From the IMG/VR virus record IMGVR_UViG_3300018083_000119, positions 1-23,085 of that record: a stretch of DNA of 23,085 nucleotides. One strand, 5' to 3'. Origin of the DNA: a virus. Positions within the stretch are counted from its first letter, which is position 1; each line of letters opens with the position of its first letter. The notes beneath the pieces are model-generated. The model saw only the letters and a program-made list of their open reading frames with translations. It was not told the DNA's origin and searched no databases. Position numbers and translations under genes: made by a program. This document shows, piece after piece, positions 2 to 6,563 of this stretch.

Positions 2-724
2 ATGGCGCGGCGGATTGGAACCGATCCCTTGCAAACGATGCAATCGCTCTACATCGTCCAAGGCAAGCCGGGATGGTCCGGACAGTTTCTCATTGCCACG
101 TTCAACCAATGCGGCAAGTTTTCCGCTATCAGGTACGAATGGCAGAGCGAGCAAGGGAAAAAGGATTGGGGTTGCCGCGCCTATACGATAGAGAAGGCAA
201 CCGGAGACCGCATTGATGGCCCTTGGGTAACTTGGGCGATGGTCGAAGCCGAAGGTTGGAACAAAAAGGCCGGAAGCAAATGGCTAACCATGCCAATGAT
301 TATGTTTTCGTATAGAGCTGCGGCTTTCCTTGTCCGGACTCATGCGCCGGAGATTGCAATGGGCTTGGCCACTGTGGAGGAAATCCGGGACGTTATCGAC
401 GTTGAACCACAACCGGCGAAGTCCGCTACCGCAGCCATCCTAGACACGCTCCGTAGCAGATTGGACAGGGAAGCCGCTGCGGCCGTGGAAGTCCCGCAGG
501 AAGCGCCCCAGGAAGCGCCGCTGCCCTTCGCCCTAGATCCGGAAGCCCCGGCGCCTGTGGAGCGCCCAACGATGTCCTATGCCGCCGTCCGTGAGCAATT
601 GGATGCGGCCGGGAACCGGGAGGTTTTGGATCAAGCCGCAGTCCATATCGAATTGGTGGCCGATGCCGGCCAACGGAAGGAACTGGTCGACATCTACAAG
701 GCGCTGAAGGCCAAATATAAATGA
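2..724 (+). CDS. recT: RecT-like single-strand annealing protein (5' end cut by window)
   Basis: This is the C-terminal part of a RecT/Bet-type phage recombinase, which anneals complementary single strands during phage replication and recombination. The reading frame is open to the left edge, so the methionine at base 2 is probably internal and the true start lies outside the window. The visible part holds the RecT signature pieces: DPLQTMQSLYIVQGKPGW (about residues 8-25), FLIATFNQCGKF (29-40), a GCRAYTIEKATGD segment (57-69) and KWLTMPMIMFSYRAAAFLVR (93-112), followed by an APE-x-x-MGL-x-T-x-EE stretch. The tail after residue 140 is Ala/Pro/Glu-rich and low in complexity, as is usual for these proteins. 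The stop codon overlaps the next gene's start (ATGA), as expected for a recombinase and its partner. Family assignment is by motif recognition. Confidence 0.85.
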   Translation: MARRIGTDPLQTMQSLYIVQGKPGWSGQFLIATFNQCGKFSAIRYEWQSEQGKKDWGCRAYTIEKATGDRIDGPWVTWAMVEAEGWNKKAGSKWLTMPMIMFSYRAAAFLVRTHAPEIAMGLATVEEIRDVIDVEPQPAKSATAAILDTLRSRLDREAAAAVEVPQEAPQEAPLPFALDPEAPAPVERPTMSYAAVREQLDAAGNREVLDQAAVHIELVADAGQRKELVDIYKALKAKYK

Positions 725-1290
725 TCCGGTATACGATCCAATCCAACGAAAACGCCTTCGCCCGCTACATCGGGAAGAAGATTACCTTGGGCTTGGGCGA
801 CTTCCATAAAACGCCGGAAGGGAACCGGCCGGCGCCGGCGGAAATGGAAGCAATAAACTATCGGGCTTGCCTTGCGGAAATCGCCGTGGCCAGGACGCTA
901 AACCTGTATTGGACCGGATCAGAAAAGCGCCGCCGGGATGTTGGCGGAATATTGGAAGTCCGGTCCATAGCCGATCCGGACCACGGATTGGTAGCCCGCG
1001 CAAATGACACGGAGGAAGCGCCGGCCGTTTTGGTATTGGTCGACGTTCCGCGCCTCGAATGCGATTTGTTGGGATGGCAAACCTTCGGCTATGCCAAGCG
1101 CTTTGGCCGGCCATTGGACGCGGACACGGCGTGGCCTTGTTGGATCCTCCCGCAACATTTCCTAGAGCCAATGGCGGAGCTCCGGCGGATCGTCCACGCC
1201 GTTAAACATCAGGAACCGACCGGCCGGACGGATCCTTGGATCGTGGCCTATGAAAAGGAAGAGCTAGCCCGTTGGGGATCCGTGGCATAG
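721..1290 (+). CDS. Conserved phage protein, possible PD-(D/E)XK-type nuclease partner of RecT
   Basis: This is a 189-residue protein whose ATG overlaps the recT stop by four bases, so the two are translationally coupled. Seen directly: an acidic helix (CLAEIAVARTL, about residues 50-60), then RRRDVGGILEVRS (70-82), then a hydrophobic strand APAVLVLVDVP (100-110). An early Glu, then an Asp, then E-x-R ahead of a strand recalls the layout of PD-(D/E)XK nucleases, with Arg where Lys is usual. Phage RecT proteins are commonly paired with an exonuclease, so the position fits. However, the protein is shorter than RecE or YqaJ exonucleases and I recognise no specific family. The nuclease role is inference. 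It is the last gene of the plus-strand early operon and is followed by an intrinsic terminator. Confidence 0.7.
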   Translation: MIRYTIQSNENAFARYIGKKITLGLGDFHKTPEGNRPAPAEMEAINYRACLAEIAVARTLNLYWTGSEKRRRDVGGILEVRSIADPDHGLVARANDTEEAPAVLVLVDVPRLECDLLGWQTFGYAKRFGRPLDADTAWPCWILPQHFLEPMAELRRIVHAVKHQEPTGRTDPWIVAYEKEELARWGSVA

Positions 1291-1316: not shown

Positions 1317-1360
1317 GCCCAAGCCGATATTCCAATGGAATCAGGCTTGGGCATTTTTTT
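1317..1360 (+). terminator. Intrinsic terminator of the early operon
   Basis: A perfect 9-bp stem, GCCCAAGCC (1317-1325) with GGCTTGGGC (1344-1352), is followed directly by A and seven Ts (1354-1360). The loop holds a second short inverted repeat, ATTCCA/TGGAAT, which could extend the hairpin. It lies 27 bases after the stop of the recT-linked gene and 42 bases before the PEP-CTERM gene. The latter should therefore have its own promoter or depend on read-through; I see no convincing -35/-10 pair in 1361-1401. Confidence 0.9.
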
Positions 1361-1401: not shown

Positions 1402-2121
1402 ATGAAACGTCTAATTCTCGCCGCCGCCTTGTCGCTACTGGCAATGCCGGCTTCCGCCACCTTGCAGCTTGCCGCCAACATCAACGGTTCCATTTTCTTT
1501 TGCGCCGATCAGACCGCTTGCGATACCAATCCTAATGTTGGCCAATTGGCGATTGCCAACCAGATTTTTAACGGCGTCGAAATCCTTGGCTCTAGCCAAT
1601 TCCAGACCATCGGCGCCCAGAATTTCCTTAACACTTCAAGCTTTCAGATCATCAACCACAACCTAGCCGCCGCGACTATTACTCTGGCCATCGGCGGAAT
1701 AGACTTCCTCGGACCTGTCGCCACTTACTCCGCAAGCGGTTCCGGGACTTGGCAAAACGCCAACGGATCGTCCATCAACCTTGGATACTATGGCGATGCC
1801 GCCAACCAACAAGGCGCCGATACGCCCTTGGACTTGCCGGGAATCCTGTTGGCAAGCTTTGCCGACATCGCCAATGGTCCGGCCGATGCCTTCGCCTTCA
1901 ACCAGGATGGCGCTTTCGTCGCCGGCGGGAACTTCGGAATGACGCTCGGAACCTCCGGGACGCTTGCCGCATGGAATGGCGCTCCGGGAACCGAAGCCAC
2001 GCTTGTTGGCCGTAGCCAAACGATCCTGACAACGCAATTGGCCGTTCCGGAACCGGCGTCCGTGGCCCTGTTGGGACTCGGACTGATGCTGATCGGCTTT
2101 TCCCGGATCTGGCGCCGGTAA
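1402..2121 (+). CDS. Secreted PEP-CTERM domain protein
   Basis: This is a 239-residue exported protein with a C-terminal exosortase recognition signal. The N-terminus is a classic Sec signal peptide: Lys-Arg at residues 2-3, a hydrophobic core, and a MPASA cleavage motif ending at residue 19. The C-terminus has VPEPAS (215-220), then a hydrophobic helix (221-233), then a basic end RIWRR, which is the canonical PEP-CTERM layout. The middle is rich in Asn, Gly, Ala, Thr and Ser with few charges, typical of these surface or matrix proteins, and has one Cys pair (34 and 40). The start has GGGGA upstream. In bacteria, exosortase (EpsH/XrtA type) processes such proteins. The gene converges on the late operon with a 3-base gap. 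Its function in a phage is unknown; host-surface alteration is one possibility. Codon and word use match its neighbours. Confidence 0.93.
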   Translation: MKRLILAAALSLLAMPASATLQLAANINGSIFFCADQTACDTNPNVGQLAIANQIFNGVEILGSSQFQTIGAQNFLNTSSFQIINHNLAAATITLAIGGIDFLGPVATYSASGSGTWQNANGSSINLGYYGDAANQQGADTPLDLPGILLASFADIANGPADAFAFNQDGAFVAGGNFGMTLGTSGTLAAWNGAPGTEATLVGRSQTILTTQLAVPEPASVALLGLGLMLIGFSRIWRR

Positions 2122-2124
2122 GCG

Positions 2125-2736
2125 TTATTGTCCCGCCGCCGGTGGAACCACCACCACCGGCGGAACGATGGCCGGTTGCGTGGCGTTGCCGTTGATTACC
2201 ACTTGGCCATCCCGGTTAGCAATGTCGATGGCCGTATTGGTCGTGGTCGTCGTGGTCGTCGTGGTATTGGGCCGCAAGTTTGCAATGCCGGACCAATCAA
2301 TCGGGACCGGCTTGAAGGCCGTAACCGCATTAAAGCCGGATCCCGCGATTCCCTGCATGGCGCCATAGCCGGCGATTGAAACGTCCGCCGCGTTGTCCGA
2401 TTGCGTCATTCCAAGCCGGTAGCCGAACCATCCCATTGCCAAGGTGGATAGGCTTGGGACCAGGATCCGCGCCCATTCCAACGCTTCGTTTTGTGGTGGC
2501 GCCAATTGGACTTGGCGTTGGCCGTTTTGAGCGCCTAGCGCCAACATGACAACCGCAACCGTCCGCGTAGTCTGGTCCCCGCCATGCTGCGCCAATTCCT
2601 GCATCGCCCGCGTTTGCTCTCGGGAAATGGAAGCGTTGGCTTCGGCAATCCGCGCCATTGCGTCCGCATAATCTTGATAGCCGGTCGTTTGGCATCCCGT
2701 CAGCGCCACAACCAAAACCGCCGCCGTTGCTCTCAT
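2125..2736 (-). CDS. Phage lipoprotein with poly-threonine tract
   Basis: This is a 203-residue predicted lipoprotein. The very short signal sequence ends in a lipobox ALTGC with Cys at residue 15. It is followed by a helical, charged segment (about 20-55, DYADAMARIAEANASISRE), a hydrophobic segment around residues 93-110 that could be a second membrane contact, a run of nine or ten Thr near residues 157-166, and a Pro/Val-rich end. It is the last gene of the minus-strand late operon and its ATG overlaps the stop of a small membrane protein (ATGA). A small membrane protein followed by a lipoprotein at the end of a late operon could be a lysis (spanin-like) pair or a superinfection-exclusion factor. 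No specific family is recognised and neither role is shown. Confidence 0.8.
   Translation of the reverse strand: MRATAAVLVVALTGCQTTGYQDYADAMARIAEANASISREQTRAMQELAQHGGDQTTRTVAVVMLALGAQNGQRQVQLAPPQNEALEWARILVPSLSTLAMGWFGYRLGMTQSDNAADVSIAGYGAMQGIAGSGFNAVTAFKPVPIDWSGIANLRPNTTTTTTTTTNTAIDIANRDGQVVINGNATQPAIVPPVVVVPPAAGQ
2238..2268. repeat. GTCGTG-type simple repeat encoding poly-Thr
   Basis: On the plus strand this reads as alternating GTGGTCGTC and GTCGTGGTC units. On the minus strand it encodes the Thr run of the lipoprotein as ACC and ACG codons. Such a tract is prone to slippage, so its length may vary between isolates. Confidence 0.75.
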
Positions 2737-2879
2737 GGCTTGCCCCCAAGGAAATAGGCCAACGCCGCCGCCACAATGGTTGCAACGGTTCCCTTTAGTA
2801 CGATGGCAATCAATCTAACCTTGGCTTCCAGTAGCGCCAAGCGTACCGGGACCGTTTGATTGGCCAAGTCCGGATCCAT
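2733..2879 (-). CDS. Small membrane protein (holin-like size), 48 aa
   Basis: This is a 48-residue protein that reads MDPDLANQTVPVRLALLEAK and then continues into one hydrophobic segment (about residues 23-44, with AIVLKGTVATIVAAALAYFL), ending GGKP. An in-frame TAA 18 bases upstream of the ATG fixes the start. The stop overlaps the ATG of the lipoprotein gene (ATGA). An amphipathic N-terminal helix followed by a single transmembrane helix is compatible with a small holin, antiholin or inner-membrane spanin partner. Nothing beyond topology and position supports this, and I do not recognise a family. It is easily missed because of its size. Confidence 0.7.
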   Translation of the reverse strand: MDPDLANQTVPVRLALLEAKVRLIAIVLKGTVATIVAAALAYFLGGKP

Positions 2880-2894
2880 GATGGTTGCATCATC

Positions 2895-3647
2895 TTATGT
2901 ACGCTTGAATACAAAGGATTCTATTTGTTGCCGGCCGGCCCGCTGCTCCATGCCATTGCGCTCTAGCTGCTCAAAGCCGAAATGCGCCATAAACTTTTGG
3001 ATGCCGGCCACCGTGAAATACCAGCAATGCTCCGTTTTCCGATAATGCTTGGATCGCAGGATGTCCGCGCAATCCTTGAATATCGGAACCGAAACGAAAG
3101 CATAGCGCCGGACGTTAGCCAATAGGTCCGTTGGATCGTGTATATGCTCCAAGCTATCCCAAAAGGTAGCCGATTCGCAGGGATCCGAATAGGGATCATG
3201 CCACCGGCCGGCCCCCTTTAGCCAATCGATTGCCGCCGGATTGATGTCGAAGCCCTTGGATTGGCCAGGAAGCGCCGCAACGAAGCGCCCGCCGCCTATG
3301 CCTATGTCGACAACTTGCCCCTTCGTATGTTGCCGGACAAGGTCCACGCGCATCCCGGTTAGCTTGATGCCAACCGGCGTGGCGTCCATCTCCCGGTAGC
3401 GCTTCCAATAGGCTTCGTCATAGGGATTAGCCGTTACAGGGAACCATCCGATCCCGACCTCGGGAAGCCATTGCAGCTTGTCTGCTTGCCACGAGGTCCA
3501 TAAGCCATCGGTCGATTTCGGCCCCGATGCCGGGAATTCGTTTGTCGCAATTGTGGCTTTGGTCCCGGCATTGGCAGAAGTCAGGAGGAAGCAGGCTTCG
3601 GATGTTGCTTGCGTCGATTCTGCTATCGAAGATTCTTTCCGGTCCAT
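2895..3647 (-). CDS. Class I SAM-dependent methyltransferase (start uncertain)
   Basis: The core is a Rossmann-type methyltransferase: the SAM-binding glycine loop VVDIGIGGGRF (about residues 112-122), the acidic loop after strand 2 in GFDINPAAIDWL (132-143) and FWDSLEHIHDP (162-172) as motif IV. The C-terminus contains HYRKTEHCWYF. The substrate cannot be read from sequence. The start is a problem. The only ATG that keeps the conserved-looking LPEVGIGWFPV segment (61-71) lies at 3647, giving a 221-base overlap with the upstream glycosyltransferase gene. The next ATG, at 3389, leaves a 164-residue protein that lacks this segment. A non-ATG start or a frameshift product is possible. Its position beside a GT9-like gene suggests joint work on a glycan. 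Confidence 0.8.
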   Translation of the reverse strand: MDRKESSIAESTQATSEACFLLTSANAGTKATIATNEFPASGPKSTDGLWTSWQADKLQWLPEVGIGWFPVTANPYDEAYWKRYREMDATPVGIKLTGMRVDLVRQHTKGQVVDIGIGGGRFVAALPGQSKGFDINPAAIDWLKGAGRWHDPYSDPCESATFWDSLEHIHDPTDLLANVRRYAFVSVPIFKDCADILRSKHYRKTEHCWYFTVAGIQKFMAHFGFEQLERNGMEQRAGRQQIESFVFKRT

Positions 3648-4347
3648 TGTAATAGCCCCATCCGCCGAAGATTAAAAGCATTGGCGTCCGATAGGCTATC
3701 GCCGCCGGGACAAGCCATCCCACGCCACCGACAACGCCGGCCGCGCCTTGGACCATGGATAGAGTCTCCTCTATCGTTAATTCGCCGGCGTGGAAGGTTT
3801 GATCCGCATAGGGCAAAGGCTCTAGCGCCCATTCCTCTCCCGGCGCCAAGTCCGCGATGCTGATGATTTCGAAAAAGTCCCGCAGTTTATCCGCCGCCAA
3901 AGCCAGATATTCCGGATCCGGATTGCGCCCTGTGGCTAGCCATTCCTTCCGGATCGTGGCCGGCCGAATCACGATATAAGGCTTCCGGGACTGCTCCCCG
4001 AAGGATGGAAGGTCGAAGATCAAGCGCTCCGGCTGAAGCCCCACGGATGCGCCTAGCGCCTCCAGGATGGAAACCTTCGGCCGGCTAACGTAGTTGACGC
4101 GGATTTCCGGGATCCGGTTGCGTGGCCAAGCCGCCCAAGGCAAGCCATCCCGCATCATATTTTTGGCTTGCGTCCGAAGCCGGGACGCCACGCGCAATGG
4201 CCAAATGCCGGGAACGTCCGCGTAGAGCTGTGGCCAAGCGGTTATCAGGTAGACCGGCCGCGCCTTGGCCATTTCCCTAACGATGGCCCGCTGATAGATG
4301 TTGTCGCCAAGCCCCATCATGCCCCGGAGCATTATGGGATTGGGCAT
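3427..4347 (-). CDS. Glycosyltransferase family 9-like protein
   Basis: This is a 306-residue protein resembling heptosyltransferase-type (GT-B, GT9) enzymes, which transfer a sugar from an activated donor. The N-terminal loop MGLGDNIYQRAIVREM (about 11-26) matches the GLGD start of this family. The C-terminal half has a GVVGGVGWLVPAAIAYRTPM segment (204-223) followed by LLIFGG, which corresponds to the donor-binding half. A Cys-rich piece, FCQCRDQSHNCDKRIP (257-272), precedes the end. Its ATG overlaps the stop of the small upstream gene by one base (TAATG). The last 60 or so residues overlap the methyltransferase frame and look less conserved, so the functional domain may end near residue 285. 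The target could be host lipopolysaccharide, a virion protein or another glycan; the sequence does not tell. Confidence 0.75.
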   Translation of the reverse strand: MPNPIMLRGMMGLGDNIYQRAIVREMAKARPVYLITAWPQLYADVPGIWPLRVASRLRTQAKNMMRDGLPWAAWPRNRIPEIRVNYVSRPKVSILEALGASVGLQPERLIFDLPSFGEQSRKPYIVIRPATIRKEWLATGRNPDPEYLALAADKLRDFFEIISIADLAPGEEWALEPLPYADQTFHAGELTIEETLSMVQGAAGVVGGVGWLVPAAIAYRTPMLLIFGGWGYYNGPERIFDSRIDASNIRSLLPPDFCQCRDQSHNCDKRIPGIGAEIDRWLMDLVASRQAAMASRGRDRMVPCNG

Positions 4348-4511
4348 TAGCCGGCGAAAAAGTAATTGGTAGCCGTGGACGTTCCGCCGGGACCGCCGCC
4401 GCCGCCGCCGGTTCCGTTTTCTATAAGCATGGGTCCGGCCGGGACTTGCTCTTGCTTCGTTGTTACCTCATTAACGAATGGCCCGCCGGGGACTTGCCGC
4501 TCCGTGGCCAT
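4347..4511 (-). CDS. Small Gly-rich phage protein, 54 aa
   Basis: This is a 54-residue protein starting MATERQVPGGPFVNEV, with a second related unit QEQVPAGPMLIENG, then a Gly-rich linker (GTGGGGGGPGG) and the end TATNYFFAG. Short proteins with repeated Q-x-P-G-x-F-x-N-E-type motifs are common in phages beside tail fibre genes. Their role is unknown, and a fibre attachment or virion accessory part is only a guess. The gene starts one base after the end of the fibre-like gene upstream, and its TAA overlaps the ATG of the glycosyltransferase gene. Confidence 0.8.
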   Translation of the reverse strand: MATERQVPGGPFVNEVTTKQEQVPAGPMLIENGTGGGGGGPGGTSTATNYFFAG

Positions 4512-4512
4512 A

Positions 4513-5835
4513 TCAAGTAACCGTTAAGAATGGATCAACGTAAACCGTGGTGGACGCCTTGGCCAACATAACTCTCGCCATATAAAAGCCCTTCATTAAC
4601 GGAGTTACAGTAACGGCAAGCTTTTGTTTATTCGGATTCGCCATTCCCGTGGTCGTCCACGGTTCGCTGCTTGATGTTTGCGCCGCCGCCGTTGCCAATA
4701 CATCTGCCTTGGCATCGGAAGCTTGGGATCCGATGGGCGCTGCCGATGTCCCAAGGTATTGGACCTCGATCCATATTTCGTCATCGTTTAGCGCCGTTAC
4801 GCTATCGCGTAGGATCTCCACGGTTATCGTTTTGGCCGCGCCGGTGGTGGCGTTATACATGGCAATTTCCGGACTTGCCAAAGCTTGGCTCGGATAACGC
4901 GCATTAGCCGCCGATACCATTTTCCACGATAGCGTATTGACGCCATCGGATGCGCCGCCGCTCCGGACCAACGTCAATTCGTCCCGGATGCTGCCAAAGT
5001 AATCCTCGATCCATAGCCGGTAATTGGTCGCCCCGGAATCGCAGTTATACATTTCCGCCCGTCCCGGCGTGGTCCACGTTCCGTTCCGCAGGGATCCGGA
5101 CCAGGAAGCCGGAAGCTTGCAATTGCGGATTATCAGCTTGGCGTCCGGTGGCGGACTGTCGAAAAAATTAATGGTTGCCGCCGCATTGGAGAAGTCCACG
5201 TTTTCGCATAGCAAGCCCGCGCCGCCGCCTACCGCGCCGGAAGCGTATCCGGAAAATAGGACCGTTGGCGAAGTCCCGCCGGCGAGAATGGATCCGCCAT
5301 TCCAATGCAAATGTCCGCCCAATTGAATGAGTATCCCCGCCGCTGAAAATTTAACGTCGCAATCCTTCCAGTTAACTCGGCTCCCGGTAGACGTAAACGG
5401 CGGACAACGCATAAAGCCACCCGTCCCAAGCATTTGGAATTGGCATTTTTCGAGAAGCGTGACGCCATTGAGGACGCCTATATTCATGCTCGGATTGGAA
5501 CCACCGGCGCCGCATTGGAAAATGATTCCGTAATAATAAGCAATGCCGCCAACCGTTAATGAATTGTTCCCGGTACAAGCAATTACCGCAGTCGTCGCCA
5601 AAGCCGTAGGTGGTTCCGCCGAATCATCGCCGCATAGGAACCGCGTTGGCGCTGCAAGCGTTCCGGCTGAGACCGTTACCGATCCCGCTGTGGTTTCGCT
5701 ATGGACTTGGGAAAACCAAACCACATCGCCAGCAGCGACTAATGTTTGCCCTGCCATGTTTGCTTTTGCTAACGCCCAGGTCAATCCGCTGTCGGCGTTT
5801 AGGCCATCGGTGGACCGCGTATAACGAATGGTCAT
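4513..5835 (-). CDS. Fibre-like virion protein, probable beta-helix
   Basis: This is a 440-residue protein with low charge, rich in Gly, Ala, Thr, Ser and Val. It has many short strand-turn units such as GVTLLEKCQF, RVNWKDCDVKF and LLCENVDFSNAAATINF (about residues 125-235), the pattern of right-handed parallel beta-helix phage proteins. The N-terminus MTIRYTRSTDG and the end VYVDPFLTVT are probably adaptor and terminal strands. The start has an AAAGG ribosome site upstream. It follows the tail hub and another fibre-like gene, so a receptor-binding or side-fibre role is likely, though the receptor is unknown. No depolymerase catalytic residues were recognised. Confidence is high that it is a structural gene and moderate for the fold. 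Confidence 0.75.
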   Translation of the reverse strand: MTIRYTRSTDGLNADSGLTWALAKANMAGQTLVAAGDVVWFSQVHSETTAGSVTVSAGTLAAPTRFLCGDDSAEPPTALATTAVIACTGNNSLTVGGIAYYYGIIFQCGAGGSNPSMNIGVLNGVTLLEKCQFQMLGTGGFMRCPPFTSTGSRVNWKDCDVKFSAAGILIQLGGHLHWNGGSILAGGTSPTVLFSGYASGAVGGGAGLLCENVDFSNAAATINFFDSPPPDAKLIIRNCKLPASWSGSLRNGTWTTPGRAEMYNCDSGATNYRLWIEDYFGSIRDELTLVRSGGASDGVNTLSWKMVSAANARYPSQALASPEIAMYNATTGAAKTITVEILRDSVTALNDDEIWIEVQYLGTSAAPIGSQASDAKADVLATAAAQTSSSEPWTTTGMANPNKQKLAVTVTPLMKGFYMARVMLAKASTTVYVDPFLTVT

Positions 5836-5837
5836 GG

Positions 5838-6563
5838 TTAGTAACCTTTATTGATGGCGCGGAGCCATGCCTTACTGTCCGCGCTATGCCACCGAAATAG
5901 CAAGGCGTCGATTTTGTTTACCGCCGTGGACAGGACCGGCGAAGGCGTATCCGTCGAAAAGCGCAAATGGGCGCCGGCCGTAAATACGCGGCTTCCGGTT
6001 CCGTCTTGGGTAAAGATAACCTCGATCCGTTGGCCATTCGTCCCATTGGTAATATCGAAGGTAATCGGTCCGGTTAGCGTTCCGACTTCAACGCAAATGG
6101 ATGGAACCGTGTTGCCCGTCAAGTCCACTGTCAGGCTTGCCGCGTAAGCCGGCGTCAATACCATGAGCGATTGATCCGCGCCGGCATTGTTGGCGCCGCA
6201 TCTCCACTCGGTTATCGCCGTGGCCACGCCGGATGCCGTGGTTATCGTGTACAGCGCCACCACGCCGGCCAAGGTTTGTGGCCATAGCGTTGGCGCCGTG
6301 GTAACGGCAGAAACCACGCCGGCCGCAGTCCGCTTAACGTAATTCGTTGCGTTATCGGTTAGGGAAATGGTTTGATTGGCGATGGTCGTTGGCGTCCCCA
6401 GGACATTCAACGCGCCGCCGTAGACTGTCAGGGACAACGCCACAAGCGTTTTGATCCCGAAGATAGCCGCCGGCGCCTCCGCGTTGTTTACGCGGTTTAC
6501 GATCACTTCCTTTTGGGAGGAAGCAAAATCAATCTGGTCGACCAGCGGCGGAATTGAACTCAT
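5838..6563 (-). CDS. Tail fibre-like protein downstream of the hub
   Basis: This is a 241-residue protein. The first 125 residues contain the common phage fibre pattern: GTPTTIANQTISLTDNATNY (about 56-75), an AAGVV strand and a TAxxxWPQTLAGVVALYTI stretch (88-107), ending ITEWRCG. In other phages this module sits at the base of fibres beside the tail tip. The C-terminal half has strands such as PITFDITNGTNGQRIEVIF, resembling a jelly-roll or beta-sandwich tip. The ATG overlaps the hub stop (ATGA), so it is translated together with the hub. The probable role is a receptor-binding or connecting fibre at the tail tip. No enzymatic motif was seen. Confidence 0.75.
   Translation of the reverse strand: MSSIPPLVDQIDFASSQKEVIVNRVNNAEAPAAIFGIKTLVALSLTVYGGALNVLGTPTTIANQTISLTDNATNYVKRTAAGVVSAVTTAPTLWPQTLAGVVALYTITTASGVATAITEWRCGANNAGADQSLMVLTPAYAASLTVDLTGNTVPSICVEVGTLTGPITFDITNGTNGQRIEVIFTQDGTGSRVFTAGAHLRFSTDTPSPVLSTAVNKIDALLFRWHSADSKAWLRAINKGY

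Follow-up and report, generated by a model that had tools for sequence, protein, structure and literature searches.

The stretch of DNA analysed here (the window) is an entire IMG/VR record of 23,085 bp and is a phage fragment, in which a gene for a protein with a PEP-CTERM sorting signal lies between RecT-side genes and a late operon that converges on it from the opposite strand. The minus strand carries portal, head-tail adaptor, major tail, tape measure and tail genes, and the features of the region around the PEP-CTERM gene are as follows.

2–1290, plus strand: upstream phage genes, encoding a RecT-like annealing protein (cut by the start of the window) and the phrog_18407 gene that follows it
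1317–1360, plus strand: rho-independent terminator of the RecT-side operon, 5′ of the PEP-CTERM gene (from folding and a counterpart in L002)
1402–2121, plus strand: gene of the PEP-CTERM protein, 239 amino acids (open reading frame with 59 viral family members)
1402–1458, plus strand: Sec-type signal peptide, residues 1–19, with an AxA cleavage motif (from the sequence pattern)
1459–2040, plus strand: beta-sandwich (jelly-roll-like) core, residues 20–213 (from AlphaFold2, fold matches and conserved columns)
2041–2118, plus strand: PEP-CTERM sorting signal, consisting of VPEP, a hydrophobic helix at residues 219–238 and RIWRR (PF07589 and TIGR02595, both above cut-off)
2125–2736, minus strand: convergent gene of a lipobox protein (LTGC), with homologues near the PEP-CTERM gene in L003 and L129

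The 239-residue product begins with MKRLILAAALSLLAMPASA followed by TLQL, and ends with VPEPASVALLGLGLMLIGFSRIWRR. Its signal peptide, recognised by sequence pattern, terminates in ASA, and both A17 and A19 are invariant in alignment A1. The tail scores 25.2 bits against the Pfam PEP-CTERM model PF07589 (cut-off 20.7) and 21.3 against TIGR02595 (cut-off 16), the model proposed as a check in the initial annotation, whose claim that the gene has both halves of an exosortase substrate is thus borne out. None of the named NCBIfam PEP-CTERM families (PepA, EDSAP-1, NF038129, THxN and others) reaches its own cut-off, the best score being 28.2 bits against 65 for NF038129, and the matches to these families sit at the C-terminal end of the protein; there is no match to the PHROG families at E ≤ 0.1, and no sequence relative was found in the PDB. 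The gene is under purifying selection, with a dN/dS of 0.13 between the window and the 89% identical copy in L002.

A hairpin at 1317–1352 followed by a T-run has a folding energy of −23.3 kcal/mol (z −3.8), and its counterpart in L002 has one of −28.8 kcal/mol (z −5.9); the stem is preserved in L002 despite sequence changes, including a switch from G-C to T-A. This agrees with the earlier proposal that the gene is a unit of its own past the early operon terminator. A consensus promoter for the gene was looked for in the window and not found. The GC content of the gene is 57.7% against 56.4% for the phage, consistent with the claim that its word use matches that of the phage. The gene order is the same in L001, which encodes an identical protein, and in L002, and because both keep it the gene does not belong to flanking host DNA; this conserved placement also excludes a host chromosome with a degenerate prophage. 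Its standing as a phage-borne gene is further supported by relatives located in those parts of other phage genomes that serve packaging, head formation and replication. Seven virus records that share only the portal with the window (one of which, L080, is the same phage) have no PEP-CTERM gene, these being fragments that may miss the site. The phage relatives of the window tail protein come mainly from phages of Caulobacter, Rhodobacter and Brevundimonas, and an alphaproteobacterial host is therefore likely, judging from these sequence relationships.

Searches with the window protein, its relatives and alignments of those relatives gathered a family of 59 IMG/VR loci, including the window, which fall into 45 clusters at 90% identity; pattern searches used subsets of the distant members, since 14 of them aligned together were too heterogeneous. 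The family is spread over clearly different phages. Neighbour annotation and clustering place its genes beside terminase, portal, polymerase or exonuclease genes; for example, L003 encodes a DNA polymerase together with a primase and a helicase that resemble those of L129, L005 and L078 are 84-kb records, and L011–L014 carry a RecE-like exonuclease. In L016 and L017 the gene belongs to the head operon, with a 4-base overlap with the portal gene, and an order of PEP-CTERM gene, terminase and tail fibre recurs in L015, L105, L115, L120 and L121. The position thus varies by phage, being after RecT, before the terminase or within the head operon, and the time of expression is therefore not uniform. 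A tblastn search of 50,697 phage records with four divergent family members gave no match to a cultivated phage, and plasmids likewise gave no match to the family. A query limited to the 25 residues of the tail also drew no hits, a result that carries no weight because BLAST filters out low-complexity sequence.

Both ends of the protein are conserved in this family. All 57 members with an intact C-terminus have an xEP motif, a helix and a basic end (54 with PEP, and one each with QEP, SEP and TEP), the other two being cut by the contig end, and 57 of the 59 have a signal-like N-terminus, the remaining two being cut at the 5′ end. The EP of the tail does not vary in an alignment of 40 members whose identity to the window protein ranges from 37 to 89%. 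When a strict tail criterion is applied to the 3,710 open reading frames in 786 kb of family loci, 63 conform to it, comprising 54 strict-PEP family members, eight adjacent companions and at most one elsewhere; only 8 of 16,980 shuffled proteins do so, and the tail is thus beyond chance. The companions are second PEP-CTERM genes directly adjoining the first in eight contigs, at these positions.

L005: 9215–9973
L073: 5447–6184
L074: 9252–9923
L078: 10180–10938
L109: 10576–11364
L122: 10639–11433
L130: 9316–9972
L132: 10592–11299

In the three companions that were compared (L005, L073 and L074) the tail is the only part in common, and these genes may encode further phage surface proteins. The pair in L132 (9878–11299) consists of two adjacent proteins that both have a PEPxxWA tail, scoring 35.5 and 35.9 against a cut-off of 35, as expected if tails follow the exosortase type of the host. 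The closest relative of the L132 helicase comes from an Ochrobactrum phage.

No exosortase was found in 40 virus records, and a tyrosine integrase is present in only two of them; most of the records are fragments, so that the absence of either gene is only suggestive. Because integrases are so rare we consider action in lytic infection more likely than lysogenic conversion, which is not favoured as a general role. Cellular relatives were surveyed by a pattern scan of 84,980 species and by profile searches in the Acetobacteraceae, in the class and phylum of a betaproteobacterial metagenome-assembled genome (MAG), and in the Alphaproteobacteria. The scan yielded four loci in three genomes, namely Roseomonas populi (one), Sabulicella rubraurantiaca (two) and the MAG (one), where the homologues adjoin ordinary host genes. 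Full-length profile matches are limited to two of the 299 Acetobacteraceae searched, one of 369 genomes from the MAG's class and one of 398 from its phylum, all of them in genomes already known from the seed search, and the other matches are mostly to the tail; the Alphaproteobacteria sample added one divergent match (G1047, E 1.9e-9). The unnamed family is thus mainly viral, with full-length cellular homologues very rare in the groups searched, and a cellular source could still lie outside the surveyed phyla. The family tree consists largely of viral rows, with the few cellular ones at two positions; as the tree is unrooted, the direction of transfer is not readable from it. All three cellular genomes that encode a homologue also have an exosortase, as do 42 of 120 Acetobacteraceae. 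Sabulicella rubraurantiaca (L008, L009 and other contigs) carries several copies of the core family together with 36 PEP-CTERM matches, an unusual expansion.

An AlphaFold2 model built from 40 alignment rows (mean pLDDT 92.5, pTM 0.84) has a beta-sandwich at residues 22–212 and a C-terminal helix at 219–238, and alignment columns reveal a C34/C40 pair in the core together with conserved D36, D41, D132 and N135. The best fold matches of the core are Bd1399 (Z 8.8), the Bacteroides SGBP-B (Z 8.4) and CBM61 (Z 7.8), with 6–9% identity. On these matches the core is possibly glycan-binding, and we treat this as a lead and not a result because Z values of 7.8–8.8 may mean just a common arrangement.

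Taken together, we think it likely that the window protein and its family are sorted by the exosortase of the host, because all 57 members with a complete C-terminus have the tail and every N-complete one has a signal-like N-terminus, because eight contigs pair PEP-CTERM genes and the L132 pair shares PEPxxWA, and because the phages lack a detected exosortase while the cellular genomes bearing homologues have one. The reading that we prefer, and hold with slightly more confidence than doubt, is that the phage encodes a surface protein which is exported and relies on the exosortase of its host for sorting; its further support is that the core is under purifying selection and that the nearest folds are those of Bd1399, of the surface glycan-binding protein SGBP-B and of the carbohydrate-binding module CBM61. 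In such a scheme Sec would export the protein during infection, the C-terminal helix would retain it in the inner membrane, and the exosortase of the host would cut off the tail and hand the core to the outer surface or to the exopolysaccharide matrix. The displayed core might then bind or cover a glycan at the surface, and neither the infected cell nor its matrix or debris would go on capturing phages, with competitors excluded and fewer progeny lost; alternatively, the effect of the displayed core could be to loosen the matrix. Masking of receptor or matrix is the role that we favour for the core, though only tentatively.

The C-terminal helix could instead be a plain anchor, holding a periplasmic protein in the membrane to act on the envelope, for example near lysis, with no part for an exosortase. 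A signal peptide and a C-terminal helix are enough for an inner-membrane protein, the gene adjoins terminase genes in several phages, and in the window it lies near a lipoprotein gene and a 48-residue open reading frame with one transmembrane segment. We nonetheless consider this unlikely, as a plain anchor needs neither the EP that is invariant in the aligned members, nor the shared PEPxxWA dialect of the L132 proteins, nor the paired PEP-CTERM genes. The invariable retention of the tail and the lack of a detected exosortase in the phages would suit a decoy, which would occupy the host exosortase to saturation and so deprive the cell of PEP-CTERM proteins of its own; for that purpose, however, a tail with a loose core would suffice, and the low dN/dS and invariant residues of the conserved core make a decoy distinctly improbable. 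We assign a similarly low probability to a virion component, such as a decoration or tail protein whose signal and anchor would serve assembly at the membrane: the overlap with the portal gene in the head operons of L016 and L017 and the frequency of beta-sandwich folds among phage tail proteins would fit, but a Sec signal with a basic C-terminal anchor is unusual in the virion proteins of tailed phages, and the position of the gene within structural operons is not fixed. Finally, the gene could be a host surface-protein gene picked up recently and by chance, without a function in the phage, or the contigs could contain host contamination. The few cellular homologues beside ordinary host genes speak for this reading, which is highly improbable and for the family largely refuted by the 45 viral clusters, many of them inside phage operons, by purifying selection, by the scarcity of full-length matches in the sampled genomes, and by a control in which one host PEP-CTERM protein had no viral relative.

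The phage protein, with its N-terminal signal and a VPEP-helix-basic tail above cut-offs, resembles the exosortase (EpsH) substrates of Gram-negative bacteria, and departs from them in being phage-encoded, in the lack of a detected exosortase in the phages, and in a core that fits no named family. In bacteria, the current view is that Sec exports PEP-CTERM proteins, which are retained by their tails, processed by exosortase and linked to the surface or matrix (PMC12188702, PMC11980579), with links to matrix binding and flocculation in particular (PMC9850573, PMC12188702); overexpression of PepA in a floc former raised bound polymer and lowered soluble polymer (PMC9850573). With PepA-type flocculation proteins (NF033554) the window protein shares the sorting signal, and matrix action would be expected, but only its tail aligns (24.4 against 80 bits). 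The claim in the initial annotation that there are no well-described phage examples agrees with the open literature, in which, with a minority of subscription papers and bioRxiv preprints included, no phage-encoded family of PEP-CTERM proteins was found to be described. The nearest precedent is a one-sentence mention of 13 TIGR03118 proteins in hot-spring viruses, noted as host-derived (PMC11003980), which similarly have a putative exosortase-interaction tail in virus contigs but belong to a different family, TIGR03118 being absent from the matches of the window protein. As far as we have checked, therefore, the sorting system is known and the recurrent viral substrate family is undescribed.

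Superinfection-exclusion and receptor-masking proteins of phages are placed in the host envelope and alter adsorption. The family would resemble them if the proposed role is right, with the difference that exosortase sorting would be used in place of lipid or plain membrane anchoring. More generally, we regard as evenly balanced the proposition that environmental phages, for the most part lytic, have in common a dedicated family of exosortase substrates that is dominated by viruses and in some of them forms two-gene cassettes, and that they display these proteins through the host exosortase to change the surface or matrix, with tails that fit the dialect of the host, a strategy not described before. 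Work on exosortase sorting has so far treated it as a host system concerned with matrix and flocs; if the proposition is true, viruses that supply substrates without the enzyme exploit this route, and their substrates would offer a natural probe of the effect of exosortase on its substrates, as well as a host-range clue, since the host should carry an exosortase matching the tail. The analysis also assigns to a family, with a predicted fold, a gene that has so far lacked annotation in 45 or more kinds of environmental phage.

Several neighbouring genes may be noted. The homologues of the window lipobox protein (L003, 9027–9635; L129, 8792–9553) are in otherwise different phages, also near the PEP-CTERM gene, and adjoining the lipobox gene in the window is the 48-residue reading frame mentioned above (2733–2879, minus strand), which is of holin-like size. 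In L005, amidoligase and gamma-glutamyl cyclotransferase genes (2971–5909) lie upstream of the PEP-CTERM pair. Overlapping methyltransferase and GT9-like glycosyltransferase genes are present at 2895–4347 of the window (minus strand) and could modify a glycan; the same pair is found in D3-like Pseudomonas phages, between the head-tail and tail genes.
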